NCBI GenBank assembly: GCA_003222895.1
Contig: QHXI01000048.1
Coordinates: forward strand, 62,001-126,000
Direction of reading: 5' to 3'
Origin: Acidobacteriota bacterium
GTDB lineage: Bacteria; Acidobacteriota; Blastocatellia; Pyrinomonadales; Pyrinomonadaceae
Length of the DNA stretch: 64,000 bases
Shown here in pieces: positions 7,175 through 56,029 of this stretch. The number at the start of each line of letters is the position of its first letter. Position 1 is the first letter of the stretch. Made by a program: the position numbers and the translations under genes. Below the pieces are notes generated by a model. It worked only from the letters and a program-made list of their open reading frames with translations, was not told where the DNA came from and made no database searches.

Positions 7175-7292
7175 GCTGAAACGCAAGGATGAAGGCGGAA
7201 GGGTAAAAGATGTATGCCCATCTAAATTCATCCCTCATCCCTCATCCTTCATCCTTGCTTTTTGCCCGCTCGCGTCCAACGATTTGTTCGGC
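7175..7292 (-). repeat. attC-like recombination site B (imperfect)
   Basis: The minus strand again has GCCGAAC (7292-7286) directly after the stop codon of the 152-residue gene, within the 31-nt block identical to site C. The other end (GTTTCAGC, 7182-7175) deviates from GTTRRRY but shares the flanking AAAGC with site C. Between them lies a hairpin made of GCAAGGATGAAGG and CCTTCATCCTTGC with a GATGAGG tandem repeat. Probably a decayed site. Confidence 0.35.
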
Positions 7293-49980: not shown

Positions 49981-50871
49981 CTAAGGCTGCGCGTCTGGAC
50001 TCAAGACATCGAATGCGACTTTCCATTTGCCGCTGTGCTTTTTCCAAACTCTGACGTAACTACCACGCTGCAACGTGACGCCCCGAGTATTGAGTTCAAA
50101 AGTTCCGTACGTGTAACCGAGATCGCCCGACTTTGATATGTCAGCCGCGCTCGGCTGCCACGTTAATGCGCGGCCATTTTCCGGCATGAGCGCAGCCGAC
50201 GCCGACTTGCCAATCGCCGGCGCTGCGTTTTCTCTCAGCACCCGCGCGTCGTCTGCAAGATACAAATTGAATGCGGTCCTCGCGCCGTTAACCGCTGATG
50301 TCTGTGAGAATTTTCCGTCTTGCGCAAACAACGTCGCGCGACCCTTCGCGACATCGACTTGCGAACTACTTGAGCTTTCGTCATTCGATGGAAACTGCAG
50401 CGTATTCGCCGCGAACGGTTTGTCAGTGGAAACGCCACGATCCAGCACGGCTTTCCACACACCATCACTTTGCTTTTTCCAAATCGTAAAGTATTGCCCA
50501 AATGCGATTGGCTTATCGTCGGGCCCGTTCGGACGAAACTCCCACGGACCAGTTGTGTAACCGAGATCTCCCGCGCGCGCGACGTCCGCGAACGCAGGTT
50601 CCCAACTCAACAAGCCTTTGCGCGGCTGACGCGCGGTCCAATATTTCTTTCCGTTGACCGGCGCCGGCTGAAAAATAATCCCATCCTCCGCAAGAAACTC
50701 GAGAAACGCGTCGCGCGTCCCTTTGGTGGCCGCGGCCTTTGCGAATGCGTGCTCCATCTCAACCAAAGCGCGACGATTTTTTGTGCGCGCGCTTTCTTTC
50801 TGCGCAAACGAATCGATCGAAAAAGGGGCCAGCGCAAAGGCGAAAAACAAAATTAGCAAAGTTCGCGACAT
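49981..50871 (-). CDS. Secreted protein with two NTF2-like (DUF4440-type) domains
   Basis: A 296-residue protein starting MSRTLLILFFAFALAPFSIDSFAQ (50871); a longer frame upstream lacks a signal peptide. The two halves are alike: FLEFLAEDGIIFQPAPVNGKKYWTARQ...DLGYTTGPWEFRPNG and FNLYLADDARVLRENAAPAIGK...DLGYTYGTFELNT. This is a duplicated SnoaL/DUF4440-type cone. Exported; function unknown. Confidence 0.8.
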   Translation of the reverse strand: MSRTLLILFFAFALAPFSIDSFAQKESARTKNRRALVEMEHAFAKAAATKGTRDAFLEFLAEDGIIFQPAPVNGKKYWTARQPRKGLLSWEPAFADVARAGDLGYTTGPWEFRPNGPDDKPIAFGQYFTIWKKQSDGVWKAVLDRGVSTDKPFAANTLQFPSNDESSSSSQVDVAKGRATLFAQDGKFSQTSAVNGARTAFNLYLADDARVLRENAAPAIGKSASAALMPENGRALTWQPSAADISKSGDLGYTYGTFELNTRGVTLQRGSYVRVWKKHSGKWKVAFDVLSPDAQP

Positions 50872-50976
50872 CGGGTTCTTCCTTTCGATGACTCTCAATA
50901 CCATCGCGTCGAGAGTTTTACAATGCGAGGTTGAATGACTCGGTTTCACCATCCAGTTTTATGGTACGCTTTCCAC

Positions 50977-52617
50977 ATGGCGAATGATCGCCCTCACGCA
51001 TCGTCGCAATCAACACTCGGCCGGCGCCTTTGGTGGCTGGTCGCAGGCAGGGCGGCCGCTGTCATCGCTCTCTTTCTGATTGGCACGGCGTGGAAATCAA
51101 TCGCGCCCGGCGTCGCCTTCGTCAAACCCGGCAGCTCAACTGTCCCAGTGGTTCTCACGGTCATTGGCTTGACCGCTCTCTATAGCATCGCTCGACTCAC
51201 ATGGAACAATTTTCTTGCTCAAGCACGCCTGCACTTCTTCCTGGACGTGCTGTTGGTGAGTTGGCTGGTCTGGATAACCGGGATTGCCGCCTCGCCTTAC
51301 GCTGCGCTTTACATCGTCATCATTGCGGTCGCCGGATTTTTTCTTGGGTCGCGCGACACAATGATCACGTCAATTGGCAGCGCTGTGGCGTTCACGGCGT
51401 GTGCGTCGTTGGCGAGCACACGCGGCGTCTCGAGCGAAGTGACGGCCAATGCCATTCAGACGGTGGGCCTGTCAGACGTGTCGTTTCTGGTCGTTGGGTT
51501 ATTGGCGGCAAAGCTCGCGCACCGGCAGAGAGTTTCAGATGTGCAACTTGCCGCTGCCACTCGTTCGCTGGCCGACCTTCGCGCTCTGCATGAGCGCATC
51601 GTCGAGTCGATTCGGTCCGGAGTAGTCACTACCGATCTGCACGGCCGCATTTACACGTTCAATGCCGCTGCGGAAGAAATCACCGGCTACCGCGCCGCGG
51701 AAGTACGCGGCCACGACGCCTCGATGTTCTTCGGTGACATGTCGCGGCAGATCAACGACTCGATGAATGCAGCCGCGACGGGAAAAGTCAGCCCGCGTTT
51801 TCAGGCCGATTGTCTTACGCCGAACGGCTTGGCGTTGCGGCTCGGCTTTACCATCGCGCCGCTGTTTGATGAATCAGGCGAGACGAGCGGGATGGTGATC
51901 ACGTTTCAGGATCTCACCGACGTGCGCGCGTTGGAAGAAACATCGCGTCGCCAGGATCGCCTGGCCGCGGTCGGTCGCATGGCCGCATCGATTGCGCACG
52001 AGATCAGAAATCCGCTCGCCGCGATGCGCGGATCGATTCAGATGTTGCACGCAGAAATGGACGGCGATACTGAGCAAGCGCAATTGATGGAAATCATCCT
52101 GCGCGAATCCGATCGCCTGAATAAAATCGTGGCTGATTATCTGAATTACGCGCGGCCGCGGCCGGCTGAATTAAAAAATGTCGATATCAAAGCGCTAATC
52201 TCCGACACCTTTAAGCTCCTGCGCAACAGCAGCGAAATAATCGATGGGCATCTGCTCGAAGAGGATTTGCCAAAGCGTCCGGCGATCGTCTCTGGCGATC
52301 CGGAGCAACTCAAGCAAGTCTGTTGGAACATTGCGCGGAATGCTCTAAAAGCGATGCCCAGCGGCGGAACGTTCCGCGTTTCATTGCAGCAAGCAGACGA
52401 CAATCGCCTTCGCGTCTCGTTCATCGACAACGGCTGCGGCATGGCGCCCGAACAGGTTGAGCATTTATTCGAGCCGTTCACTTCGACGACCGGCGGGACC
52501 GGTCTGGGGCTTTCGATTGTCTATCAAATTATTCGCGACCATAGTGGTACAATCAACGTTCGCAGCCGAGAAGGCGCGGGAACCACGATTACGATCGAGC
52601 TGCCCGTGACTAGCTAA
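50977..52617 (+). CDS. PilS-like sensor kinase (6 TM, PAS, HisKA, HATPase)
   Basis: A 546-residue kinase (start ATG 50977; upstream ATG would add 14 residues). About six transmembrane helices lie in residues 20-185 (LWWLVAGRAAAVIALFLIG and others). A PAS domain follows (about 205-310; SIRSGVVTTDLHGRIYTFNAAAEEITGY), then HisKA (AASIAHEIRNPLAAMRGSIQML) and HATPase (NIARNALKAMPSGG; TGGTGLGLSIVYQII). The layout matches PilS, the kinase of the type IV pilus PilSR pair. An NtrC-family regulator follows, separated by a four-helix-bundle gene. Confidence 0.88.
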   Translation: MANDRPHASSQSTLGRRLWWLVAGRAAAVIALFLIGTAWKSIAPGVAFVKPGSSTVPVVLTVIGLTALYSIARLTWNNFLAQARLHFFLDVLLVSWLVWITGIAASPYAALYIVIIAVAGFFLGSRDTMITSIGSAVAFTACASLASTRGVSSEVTANAIQTVGLSDVSFLVVGLLAAKLAHRQRVSDVQLAAATRSLADLRALHERIVESIRSGVVTTDLHGRIYTFNAAAEEITGYRAAEVRGHDASMFFGDMSRQINDSMNAAATGKVSPRFQADCLTPNGLALRLGFTIAPLFDESGETSGMVITFQDLTDVRALEETSRRQDRLAAVGRMAASIAHEIRNPLAAMRGSIQMLHAEMDGDTEQAQLMEIILRESDRLNKIVADYLNYARPRPAELKNVDIKALISDTFKLLRNSSEIIDGHLLEEDLPKRPAIVSGDPEQLKQVCWNIARNALKAMPSGGTFRVSLQQADDNRLRVSFIDNGCGMAPEQVEHLFEPFTSTTGGTGLGLSIVYQIIRDHSGTINVRSREGAGTTITIELPVTS

Positions 52618-52620
52618 AAG

Positions 52621-53128
52621 AATTATTTGACATTTGCCATTGGAGATTTGTCATCTGTTATTAAAGATCTCTGAAGTTCTGAAGGAACCGCAAGATGCGC
52701 GAAGGAACAGCAACGGGAAAAGATCCTCTATCACAGGCTGATTTACTGGAAGAGCGGCTTGTTGATTTCGTGGTTCGAATCGTGAAACTCTCGGCTAGCT
52801 TGCCGAAGAACGCGGCGGGCCGACATATCGCCGGTCAGATACTCCGCTCTGGAACATCACCAGCTCCGAATTACGGTGAAGCGCGAGGTGCTGAAAGTCC
52901 ATCGGATTTCATTCACAAGTTGCGAATCGTTCTTAAGGAACTAAACGAGACATCGATTTGGTTGCGAATCATTGAGCGCAGCGAACTCATAAGGAGCCAA
53001 TTGCTCTCAGATATTACTAACGAAAACACAGAACTGTGTCGCATCTTTGCTTCATCGCGCTAAAGACGGCGAATGCCAGAAAAGAAAGTAACAAATGACA
53101 AATGTCCAATGACAAATGTCAAATAATT
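52621..53128. mobile_element. Inverted-repeat-bounded unit carrying a four-helix-bundle gene
   Basis: AATTATTTGACATTTGCCAT (52621-52640) and the following bases to 52662 are an approximate inverted match of 53088-53128 (GTAACAAATGACAAATGTCC, then AATGACAAATGTCAAATAATT). About 41 bp per arm, with a few mismatches. The 508-bp unit inside the kinase/regulator pair carries one gene. Direct target duplications are not clear. Confidence 0.6.
52695..53063 (+). CDS. Four-helix-bundle protein (23S rRNA intervening-sequence / bAvd-like family)
   Basis: A 122-residue, mostly helical protein: RLVDFVVRIVKLSASLPKN, AAGRHIAGQILRSGTSPAPNYGEARGAESPSDFIHKLRIVLKELNETSIWLRIIERSELI. This is the signature of the IVP/four-helix-bundle family, which is found in 23S rRNA intervening sequences, widely dispersed elsewhere, and related to the Avd protein of diversity-generating retroelements. 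Start ATG 52695 with an upstream GAAGGAA. The gene sits between a PilS-like kinase and its likely regulator, inside inverted repeats. Confidence 0.85.
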   Translation: MREGTATGKDPLSQADLLEERLVDFVVRIVKLSASLPKNAAGRHIAGQILRSGTSPAPNYGEARGAESPSDFIHKLRIVLKELNETSIWLRIIERSELIRSQLLSDITNENTELCRIFASSR

Positions 53129-53136
53129 CTTAACCC

Positions 53137-54660
53137 ATGGCAAGACTACTGATTGTTGATGACGAGTTGAGCATGCGCCAATTTTTGACGCATCTGTTTC
53201 AGCGTGACGGACATGCGATCCGCGTCGCTGAGAATGGTCGCCAGGCGATGGCCATGCTCCGCGAACAACCTGCCGACGTAATTATTTCCGATGTGAAGAT
53301 GCCGGACATGGGCGGTATCGACTTGCTGCGCGCCGCGCGCGAGCTGCAGCCGGAAATCGAAGTCATCATGATGACCGCGTTTGCCAACGAGCAGACGGCG
53401 CATGAAGCGTTTCTTCTCGGAGCGTTCGATTTTGTACATAAGCCGTTCGACAACAATCTGCTGAAAGAAAAAGTTGCGCGCGCGCTGCAAAAAATTTCGA
53501 TCGTCAAAGAGAAGCAGGCACTACAAGTTGAAAACGAAGCGCTGATCAAGGGTCAGCGTGCCCGTGGTCAACTTCGTAACATCGTGGGTCGATCCGATCG
53601 CATGCAGTCCGTCTATCAAATGATCGAGACGGTCGCGCAGGTTCAATCCACTGTGCTCATCACCGGCGAATCCGGCACCGGGAAAGAATTGGTGGCCCGC
53701 GCGATTCATGATCTTAGTCCGCGCGCGCAGAAACCTTTCGTTTCGGTCAACTGCGGAGCCTTCACCGAAACGCTGTTGGAATCGGAACTGTTCGGTTATA
53801 TGAAAGGCTCGTTCACCGGCGCGACCGCAAACCGAAAGGGTCTGTTCGAAGCGGCCGAGCAAGGCACGATCTTTCTCGATGAAATCGGTGAAATGTCTGC
53901 GGCTATGCAAGTAAAACTTTTGCGCGTGTTGCAGGAGCGGAAGGTGCGCCCCGTCGGCGCGCACGAAGAAACTGAAGTGAACACGCGCGTAATCGCGGCG
54001 ACGAATCGAGACCTCTCGGCGCTCGTCAAGCAAGGAACCTTCCGCGAAGACTTGTTCTATCGCGTCTCGGTTATTCCGATGGAACTGCCGCCGTTGCGTG
54101 ATCGTGGCGAAGACATCGCCGAACTGGCCGAGCACTTCATAAAGAAATATTGCGAGCAAACCGGCCGCGCGATCTCGATCAGCGGACCGGCGATGCGTCT
54201 GCTCGAAGGTTATTCGTGGCCGGGCAATGTGCGCGAGCTCGAACATACGATCGAACGCGCGGTCGCCCTCGAACGAACGGAGATGGTTCAGCCGGAACGT
54301 TTGCCGGAACAGGTTACGAATTACAGCCAGACTCGAATTAGTTCCGACCTGGAGTTGCCGCCGCAAGGGATCAATCTTACGGCGCACCTGGATCAACTTG
54401 AAAAGACTTACGTGCTCGAAGCGCTGCGGCGCACTGACGGCAATCAGACCAACGCTGCCGATCTGCTGAAAATGTCCGTGCGGTCGCTGCGTCATTTGCT
54501 GGACAAACACGGCATTCGTGGCCTGACTGCGCAGATGCGCGATGAGCGCCGTCACGAAACTATTCCCCGTCGTCGCTCCGCCGACCCTTATCCTCGTCGC
54601 CGCACCGAAGACTTTGACGAACAAACGGAGCAGGCTGCGAGTGCCAGCGAAAGCTCCTGA
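53137..54660 (+). CDS. PilR/NtrC-like sigma-54 response regulator
   Basis: A 507-residue activator: receiver (about 3-115; VIISDVKMPDMGG), AAA+ domain (about 145-375; GESGTGKE; loop reads GSFTGA, Ser for the usual Ala; LDEIGEMS Walker B) and a Fis-type HTH (GNQTNAADLLKMSVRSLRHLLDKHG). An Arg-rich tail (PRRRSADPYPRRRTEDF) follows. The likely partner is the PilS-like kinase, separated by 519 bp with an inserted unit. Ser in the loop is tolerated in some family members. Confidence 0.92.
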   Translation: MARLLIVDDELSMRQFLTHLFQRDGHAIRVAENGRQAMAMLREQPADVIISDVKMPDMGGIDLLRAARELQPEIEVIMMTAFANEQTAHEAFLLGAFDFVHKPFDNNLLKEKVARALQKISIVKEKQALQVENEALIKGQRARGQLRNIVGRSDRMQSVYQMIETVAQVQSTVLITGESGTGKELVARAIHDLSPRAQKPFVSVNCGAFTETLLESELFGYMKGSFTGATANRKGLFEAAEQGTIFLDEIGEMSAAMQVKLLRVLQERKVRPVGAHEETEVNTRVIAATNRDLSALVKQGTFREDLFYRVSVIPMELPPLRDRGEDIAELAEHFIKKYCEQTGRAISISGPAMRLLEGYSWPGNVRELEHTIERAVALERTEMVQPERLPEQVTNYSQTRISSDLELPPQGINLTAHLDQLEKTYVLEALRRTDGNQTNAADLLKMSVRSLRHLLDKHGIRGLTAQMRDERRHETIPRRRSADPYPRRRTEDFDEQTEQAASASESS

Positions 54661-54682
54661 GACTCCTCTAATAACAAAACTC

Positions 54683-54714
54683 TTGACGCGATTTTCTCGG
54701 GGGTGCTAGGTTGC
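54683..54714 (+). promoter_or_regulatory. Candidate promoter upstream of acidic-tail receiver gene
   Basis: TTGACG (54683-54688) with an 18-nt spacer to TAGGTT (54707-54712) fits a housekeeping promoter. Overlapping it, GG (54701-54702) and TTGCA (54711-54715) have sigma-54 spacing. Either may act on the gene at 54728. Confidence 0.35.
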
Positions 54715-54727
54715 AAATAGGGCGTAG

Positions 54728-56029
54728 GTGACAATAGACGTGCTCAAGGGGAAAACATTATTGCTGGCGGACGATTCGGCCGCGATCCAAAAAGTGATCG
54801 ATCTCACTTTTTCCGATGAAGGCATGAAAGTCACCGCCGTCGGCGATGGCCGCGCCGCGTTGAATGAACTCGAACAATTTCCGGTGCCGGATCTTGTCCT
54901 CGCCGATGCATCGATGCCCGAGATGGGCGGGTTTGAACTTTGTCAGATCATCAAACGAGATGATCGATTCTCGACGATACCCGTCATTCTGTTAATCAGC
55001 TCCTTCGAACCTTTCGATGAAGCGCAGGCCAAAGCCGCCGGCGCCGATGACGTCGTGAGCAAACCTTTCCAATCAATTCGCGACCTGGTAAGCCGAGTCG
55101 GTTCGTTGCTTGGCAGCGGCTCGCCAACGCATGACAAATCTCCGGGCGATCATTCGATGTTAGGCCTATCTCATTCGCCGCCGACGGTGAATGTCGTCGA
55201 GCCTTCTTCAGACGCGAACGCGGATGCATCCGAAGAGCCGAAGGTCACGGTCCTGGTCGAAGCGCCGGTGATGGATCATCCTGAGTCGAGCGAACCTGCG
55301 GGAGCGACCTGCGTTGCCGATATGGAACTTCAAACCGCGGACACGAAGAAACTCGAGCGCATCACCGACGAACCTGACGAAGCACCGCAAGAGGATTCGC
55401 AGTTTCAGGATACGGTCGAGGTCGAGCCAGCTTACCCAGCACCTCCTCAAACATTCGAGGATCCGGAGTTTCAGAATACGATCGAAGTGGAGCCGGCAGA
55501 TCCCCCTGCTGAAGCTGCGACGTCTCACGCAATCGAAAATGAAGAACCGCAGTATTCGCAGTTCGCCGACACGACCGAGGTCTTCACGCAACGGCCTGTC
55601 GAAACCGCCAGGAGTTCGGACGATGCACTGCTCGATCTCGATGCATTCGACGAGACGATTAGCGAGGAGGTCTCGCTCGATTTGGATTTTGGCGCGTCTC
55701 TACCATCGGAAGTTCGCGAAAGATCTGCGTCCGCGCCGCAAGTTAATCCCGCGTTGATCGCTACTGAAACCGCGACTGCAACCAAGTCTTTTGCAATTTT
55801 GTCGGAGTCGCCGGCACTGGAATCAGATGCAACTGCAATCGCGCCGGAATCGCCCGCCGCACATCATGAGGTGACTTCGGCTGGAACTCTGTCCGACGAA
55901 GCAATCGAGGCCATAGCGCGCCGCGTCGTCGAACAAATATCCGATAAGGTTGTCCGCGAAATCGCCTGGGAAGTCGTCCCGGAATTATCAGAATTGCTCA
56001 TTAAGAAGAAGCTCGAAGAACAGAAGTAA
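54728..56029 (+). CDS. Response regulator receiver with long acidic tail
   Basis: A 433-residue protein. Start GTG 54728. The receiver (about 8-125; LVLADASMPEMGG, SSFEPFD and VVSKPFQS) is intact. A long Glu/Pro/Asp-rich disordered region (about 135-385) contains three near repeats of the type SQFQDTVEVEP. The C-terminal helix (EAIARRVVEQISDKVVREIAWEVVPELSELLIKKKLEEQ) is amphipathic and is probably a protein-interaction module found in other acidobacterial and deltaproteobacterial receivers. No output domain is known. Confidence 0.85.
   Translation: MTIDVLKGKTLLLADDSAAIQKVIDLTFSDEGMKVTAVGDGRAALNELEQFPVPDLVLADASMPEMGGFELCQIIKRDDRFSTIPVILLISSFEPFDEAQAKAAGADDVVSKPFQSIRDLVSRVGSLLGSGSPTHDKSPGDHSMLGLSHSPPTVNVVEPSSDANADASEEPKVTVLVEAPVMDHPESSEPAGATCVADMELQTADTKKLERITDEPDEAPQEDSQFQDTVEVEPAYPAPPQTFEDPEFQNTIEVEPADPPAEAATSHAIENEEPQYSQFADTTEVFTQRPVETARSSDDALLDLDAFDETISEEVSLDLDFGASLPSEVRERSASAPQVNPALIATETATATKSFAILSESPALESDATAIAPESPAAHHEVTSAGTLSDEAIEAIARRVVEQISDKVVREIAWEVVPELSELLIKKKLEEQK

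Follow-up and report, generated by a model that had tools for sequence, protein, structure and literature searches.

The window, by which we mean the whole stretch of 64,000 nucleotides analysed here (G000:C88:62001-126000, in an assembly of 4.77 Mb), carries a compact unit in which a single IVP gene lies between inverted arms, placed between a PilS-like kinase gene and a PilR-like regulator gene. The features discussed are listed below, in window positions.

50935 to 52617, plus strand: PilS-like sensor histidine kinase, 560 aa, the upstream host gene (open reading frame with HATPase_c, HisKA, PAS and 6TM_PilS)
52618 to 52660, plus strand: left arm, a degenerate heptamer array of the TTTGTCA type (inverted repeat I1; heptad pattern)
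52682 to 52687, plus strand: AAGGAA, putative ribosome-binding site of the IVP gene (sequence inspection)
52695 to 53063, plus strand: IVP/four-helix-bundle gene, 122 aa (PF05635, TIGR02436; homology to 2rld; dN/dS about 0.07 against the G003 ortholog)
53089 to 53131, minus strand: right arm, a heptamer array inverted relative to the left arm (inverted repeat)
53137 to 54660, plus strand: NtrC/PilR-class sigma-54 response regulator, 507 aa, the downstream host gene (open reading frame with Response_reg, Sigma54_activat and HTH_8)
7179 to 7262, no strand assigned: gene-less heptad hairpin of another family (AAGGATGA/TGAGGGA type), with arms matching IVP unit L019 of the same genome

The arms are 43 nt each, 93% complementary and 428 nt apart, and their alignment scores 71 against a shuffle maximum of 22. 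The inverted repeat that the first-pass annotation described around a four-helix-bundle gene is therefore real, although its arms (noted as about 41 bp) were slightly off in position and length and their edges misplaced: the left arm opens at the base directly after the kinase stop (TAA, 52615-52617) rather than 3 bp after it, and the right arm closes 5 bp, not 8 bp, ahead of the regulator ATG at 53137. Also overlooked was the heptamer nature of the arms, found at nearly all IVP loci examined; here they are degenerate 7-bp tandem arrays running TTTGACA TTTGCCA TTGGAGA TTTGTCA TCTGTTA. Folded as RNA, the arms pair and leave the IVP gene in the loop (z = -6.5 against shuffles). An Rfam search of window positions 50000-56000 gave no match.

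The only open reading frame inside the arms matches PF05635 (E 1.4e-15) as its sole domain, and TIGR02436, "four helix bundle protein" (E 1.3e-23); it is homologous to the solved structure 2rld (E 4.5e-18) and has no Y1/HUH transposase domain. The IVP family takes its name from rRNA intervening sequences (IVS), and no nuclease or recombinase motif is known in its proteins. Domain matches on both sides agree with the earlier description of a unit that fills the space separating PilS-like and PilR-like genes: the kinase has a weak 6TM_PilS domain (E 2.4e-7) together with PAS, HisKA and HATPase domains, and the regulator is a sigma-54 activator of the NtrC class.

Comparison of this gap among genomes of the genus supports the insertion-like character proposed for the unit. 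It is also present in G003, with proteins 80% identical and a paired arm change between the two genomes (AATTATTT/AAATAATT to AACTATTT/AAATAGTT). The closest relative of the window genome, G005, its sister with full support in the tree, has a clean gap of 5 bp, which supplies the empty site that had been called for, and the gap is 7 bp in G006 and 24 bp in G001. G004 has a gene-less hairpin with a different heptamer (GAGCTTA) in the same place, and in none of the genomes examined did an IVP gene without arms turn up between pilS and pilR. Because G003 shares it, the copy is an old one and not a recent arrival. Most simply, the unit was inserted long ago and cleanly lost in G005; two independent insertions are possible.

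Similar turnover was found at other loci. In about 20 occupied/empty comparisons with relatives, other units lie where the relative has a gap of 2-10 bp, and one and the same gap can hold, in another genome, a different heptad, a GxxExxY-type repeat or a REP. No target-site duplication was recognisable in these comparisons, which involve genomes 17-25% diverged. At least three hairpin systems coexist in the genus genomes and replace one another in the same gaps.

Heptamer arms are a general property of IVP loci. Homologous IVP genes do carry arms, and arms and gene recur together as a unit in other genomes. The flanks of the 17 PF05635 places in the window genome give a lag profile with peaks at 7, 14 and 21 bp, whereas control flanks have no peaks. 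Across the seven genus genomes, inverted arms scored above every shuffle at 56 of 65 IVP loci; identity within arms is 0.71 at lag 7 vs 0.19-0.30 at other lags, and most units are 420-550 bp long. The heptamer differs by IVP lineage (GATTGCC, AAGTCTG, TGAGGGA, GAGTCGC, GTAAATC, AGCTATC and others). In a wider sample of 80 loci from a scan with one genome per species, plus 21 from viral contigs, heptad-type inverted arms were present at 74 of the 93 testable loci, with a lag-7 identity of 0.66. Armed loci occur in Acidobacteriota, Planctomycetota, Bacteroidota, several proteobacterial classes, Cyanobacteria, Clostridia, Nitrospirota, Patescibacteria and others, a spread of about ten phyla with a heptamer of its own in each lineage; Bacteroidaceae and Patescibacteria tend to 8-bp units. 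In Xanthomonadaceae and a further five genomes, 37 of 41 IVP loci likewise had arms, of the heptad kind in 34. The phage records searched gave no classical IVP match.

Several further observations concern the arms themselves. Read from the outside inward, they have G > C in 90 units and G < C in 14, in the genus and elsewhere alike. The longest arms seen, of about 185 bp with some 26 GGACGGT heptads, belong to a planctomycete locus (L192). The idea that heptads supply stop codons in all frames, 7 not being a multiple of 3, was rejected, with left arms at 0.28 vs 0.26 expected and no enrichment; right arms gave 0.28 vs 0.18. An apparent case of recent plasmid-to-plasmid transposition in Calothrix was also ruled out, the shared region being a larger homologous plasmid block and not the unit.

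Arms are inherited together with the protein. When non-orthologous units, whose flanks are dissimilar, are compared in pairs, those with IVPs at least 70% identical have the heptamer in common in 89% of cases (n = 19); between 55 and 70% identity the share is 18%, between 45 and 55% it is 4%, and below 35% it is 1%. One unit in G002 (L081) resembles the window unit in both arms and protein (74% identity) and has unrelated flanks; L054 and L055, with IVPs 86% identical, are a second such pair. Since similar IVPs share a heptamer despite unrelated flanks, the arms are part of the unit and are not derived from the target. At one further pair, L036 in G001 and L034 in G002 (IVPs 81% identical), the flanks match with left and right swapped, as though the unit had been turned round across its inverted arms.

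The arms also occur without the gene. Six matches to the window arms elsewhere in the genome were fetched: four clearly have both arms, about 100-190 bp apart with no gene between them, and the other two are single heptad matches in inverted orientation. A count of inverted units with a 7-bp period in 864 kb sampled from the window genome gave 34, where other periods gave 2-17 and shuffled sequence 1. Their lengths cluster at 47-127 bp, for units without a gene, and at 434-514 bp, for units with IVP; four are intermediate. Thirty of the units have no assigned IVP gene; the arms of 27 match IVP arms of the genus, and those of 17 match a resident IVP unit. The first-pass annotation had called the window unit non-autonomous, which is probably the wrong way round: the unit with IVP appears to be the more complete form, and the hairpins that lack the gene its derivatives. 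The intermediate units (246-386 bp) are not decayed IVP genes, as tblastn found no IVP remnant in them; judged by sequence, one seems to contain nested REPs and another a ribosomal protein gene between separate heptad arrays. At L266:6958-7282, the loop of a heptad hairpin seems to have received REP-like hairpins, a nested turnover of two systems, and at L261:11735-11980 a long, almost perfect run of GTTAGAG is paired with a degenerate inverted array; the heptamer matches that of IVP unit L011.

A family with a published heptad repeat allowed a prediction to be made. GGGAATC heptads of Xanthomonas are unexplained and intergenic, with 70 inverted pairs in one genome (Rehm et al., PMC4692102) and about 70-75 in each of two genomes (PMC4692102). 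Other published heptads are GGGGA(T/C)T in Nostoc (PMC4692102) and TAACTGA in Beggiatoaceae (PMC4679880); the papers report no gene partner for such heptads and suggest G-quadruplex or regulatory roles (PMC4692102, PMC4679880). As the solved IVP structure 2GSC (XCC0516) comes from Xanthomonas, where the orphan GGGAATC heptads are found, such IVP genes were predicted to carry GGGAATC arms. The prediction held. Xanthomonadaceae IVP units have GGGAATC/GGGATTC arms, at least two adjacent GGGAWT heptads lie in the flanks of 14 of 28 usable units, and those IVPs that were tested proved to be close relatives of XCC0516/2GSC. One Luteimonas genome (L222) has GGGAATC arms and a single IVP. Heptad abundance depends on the IVP gene in this one family: among 99 Xanthomonadaceae genomes, at least 40 sites of three GGGAWT heptads were found in 26 of 44 genomes with IVP and in 0 of 55 without (Fisher p 2e-12, a value that ignores kinship among the genomes). 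Seventeen IVP-bearing genomes have few GGGAWT heptads, and several of their units have other heptamers. The link to IVP is a possible explanation for this published orphan repeat.

Known enzymes of mobility were sought in the same genomes. Reverse transcriptases were above the family cut-off in none of the seven genus genomes (79-100% complete); six, including the window genome with its 17 IVP matches, had no RVT_1 match at all, and the seventh had one weak, broken match. A reverse-transcriptase partner, as the analogy with bAvd of diversity-generating retroelements would suggest, was rejected on this family search of the genus. The description of the gene as bAvd-like holds for the resemblance of the family, PF05635 being similar to Avd and the four-helix-bundle fold homologous (PMC10053308), but not for a reverse transcriptase, which does not accompany IVP units in the window genome; nor did a template/variable repeat come to light beside them. 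Genes with Y1_Tnp occur in all seven genomes (4-25 matches each) and were rejected as mobilisers of the heptads, being flanked by REP arms of their own and not by heptads; at L289-L292 and L323-L340 these flanks are classical REP hairpins. Autonomous relatives sharing the arms had been envisaged, and no transposase was found between heptad arms around the Y1 genes of these genomes. A further set of genes, GxxExxY (TIGR04256, L293-L322), lies inside inverted arms in 23 of 26 cases tested, in units mostly of 450-560 bp. Their arms consist of 9-10 bp repeats, such as CCGCAGATTACGCAGATT or CACAGAGGACACAGAGG, and have no heptads; these genes and arms are a parallel gene-plus-arm system.

Placement of the units is not random with respect to neighbouring genes. 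In 52 of 53 genus units the IVP gene has the same orientation as the gene upstream of it, and outside the genus the ratio is 41:6; in genus units the median distance from the upstream stop codon to the start of the arm is about 2 bp. At orthologous sites dN/dS of IVP is about 0.05-0.13, with synonymous sites near saturation, values that indicate strong purifying selection on the gene. A promoterless gene surviving only where read-through expresses it would give the sense-orientation pattern; strand-specific insertion is an alternative. Sense orientation and purifying selection together would fit a host function equally well. Arm mismatches in genus units, read on the sense strand, are 54 of G-U type vs 57 of A-C type. 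This lack of a G-U bias speaks against selection on the stem as RNA only, and favours copying at the DNA level over it.

Among known systems, RAYT/REPIN is the closest in organisation. Like IVP units, it consists of one gene beside an inverted pair of palindromic repeats, with a repeat type for each protein lineage, many gene-less intergenic doublets per genome and a protein under selection (PMC3116915). In IVP units, too, a repeat pair flanks the gene, doublets are dispersed, and protein lineage and repeat co-vary. The IVP unit differs in encoding a four-helix bundle instead of an HUH/Y1 transposase and in having degenerate heptamer arrays instead of REP palindromes, and true RAYT/REP units with different arms exist in the same genomes. 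The window unit works like RAYT/REPIN and is not a member, since its protein is not a Y1 transposase. The 23S rRNA IVS of Coxiella burnetii is alike in its S23/IVP protein family, its length of 0.4-0.5 kb, its terminal stem and the open reading frame in its loop (PMC4990558); that stem, of 28 bp, is cut by RNase III, and tandem GACAGAT heptamers lie at the 5' side (PMC4990558). Unlike the IVS, the window unit lies between two protein-coding genes and not inside a 23S rRNA helix, and in the IVS literature the niche is rRNA helices, with no description of protein-specific heptamers or of dispersed copies lacking the gene. Xanthomonas GGGAATC heptads are similar in being intergenic and in forming inverted pairs, and IVP units of the same family carry GGGAATC/GGGATTC arms. 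Classical IS and MITE elements differ in that the IVP units, in about 20 comparisons, have no recognisable target-site duplication at their ends. We found no paper in the open-access literature that links IVP genes to heptads outside rRNA, and an earlier description elsewhere is possible.

Taken as a whole, the unit is probably one copy of a two-part mobile system resembling REPIN/RAYT, made up of an IVP-family protein and matching heptad hairpins. The 7-bp motif is particular to each IVP lineage; degenerate copies of it, in two tandem arrays inverted to each other, form the ends of an IVP unit (about 420-550 bp), and such a pair also occurs alone as a hairpin of about 50-130 bp. We infer that IVP binds the arms and has a causal part in their spread; the role in spread that the first-pass annotation suggested for the protein is borne out as far as correlation goes. 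The protein, whose solved relative 2GSC is a pentamer, would most likely recognise heptad arms that have folded in single-stranded DNA or RNA and help them to be copied to further sites, acting in cis on its own unit and in trans on hairpins without a gene, as RAYT does with REPINs. Short intercistronic gaps may tolerate new copies, and IVP-bearing copies may persist mainly where the upstream gene supplies read-through transcription.

Other readings fit parts of these data. An RNA-level selfish element, comparable to the 23S rRNA IVS, would be rendered harmless in transcripts by an RNase III-cleavable stem and would spread as RNA with strand-specific insertion. The near-uniform sense orientation about 2 bp past the stop codon, the strong pairing of the arms as RNA and the RNase III-cut Coxiella stem with its GACAGAT heptamers (PMC4990558) all agree with this, as does the origin of the family name. 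Given that reverse transcriptases are missing as described, that mismatches have no sense-strand G-U bias and that selection for the IVP reading frame can account for the orientation, we regard it as unlikely. A domesticated regulatory module, in which the host keeps the IVP gene and hairpin for operon control and mobility is only past, accords with purifying selection and with the conservation of the unit between G000 and G003, whose arms differ by paired changes (AATTATTT..AAATAATT vs AACTATTT..AAATAGTT). It seems improbable when the gap is empty or otherwise filled in 4 of 6 genomes, including the sister G005, when different IVP units interrupt unrelated operons, and when gene-less hairpins are numerous and turning over.

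The two remaining readings give IVP no active part. Heptameric simple repeats are over-represented in bacteria generally, and polymerase slippage has been suggested as their source (PMC4679880, PMC4692102), so the arms might be satellites grown around any intergenic gene. This reading is already contradicted: the arms are inverted, lie around IVP genes specifically and match the protein lineage; in the same genomes the arms of GxxExxY genes are of the 9-10 bp kind and those of Y1 genes are REPs; and heptad abundance depends on the presence of IVP. We consider slippage very improbable. Still harder to credit is a MITE-like element of the classical sort that a standard transposase such as Y1/RAYT mobilises in trans, with IVP as passenger: Y1_Tnp genes are indeed at hand in every genus genome, but these have their own REP hairpins, target-site duplications were not seen and the arms co-diverge with IVP.

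Beyond the locus, and more tentatively than the reading of the unit as a two-part mobile system, IVPs could constitute a separate, phylum-spanning class of mobile element with no recognised transposase or reverse transcriptase, whose protein recognises lineage-specific hairpins of 7-bp (sometimes 8-bp) repeats and spreads them in cis and in trans through intercistronic gaps. If so, this class would account for a large part of the excess of heptameric repeats in bacteria and for how 23S rRNA intervening sequences arose, and GxxExxY genes with their 9-10 bp arms would represent a parallel system. A mobile system with a four-helix bundle as its only gene, and with no reverse transcriptase found, would need a chemistry of movement that has not been described. 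Three old puzzles meet here, namely the role of the IVP/S23 protein, the inverted ends of 23S rRNA intervening sequences and the abundance of intergenic heptamers. Were every heptamer family the arm of some IVP unit, all of them would have a testable partner gene, and the cognate pair of protein and hairpin would be predictable from sequence. IVP units may lie behind many of the 7-base repeats whose presence in the genomes of bacteria has been puzzling.
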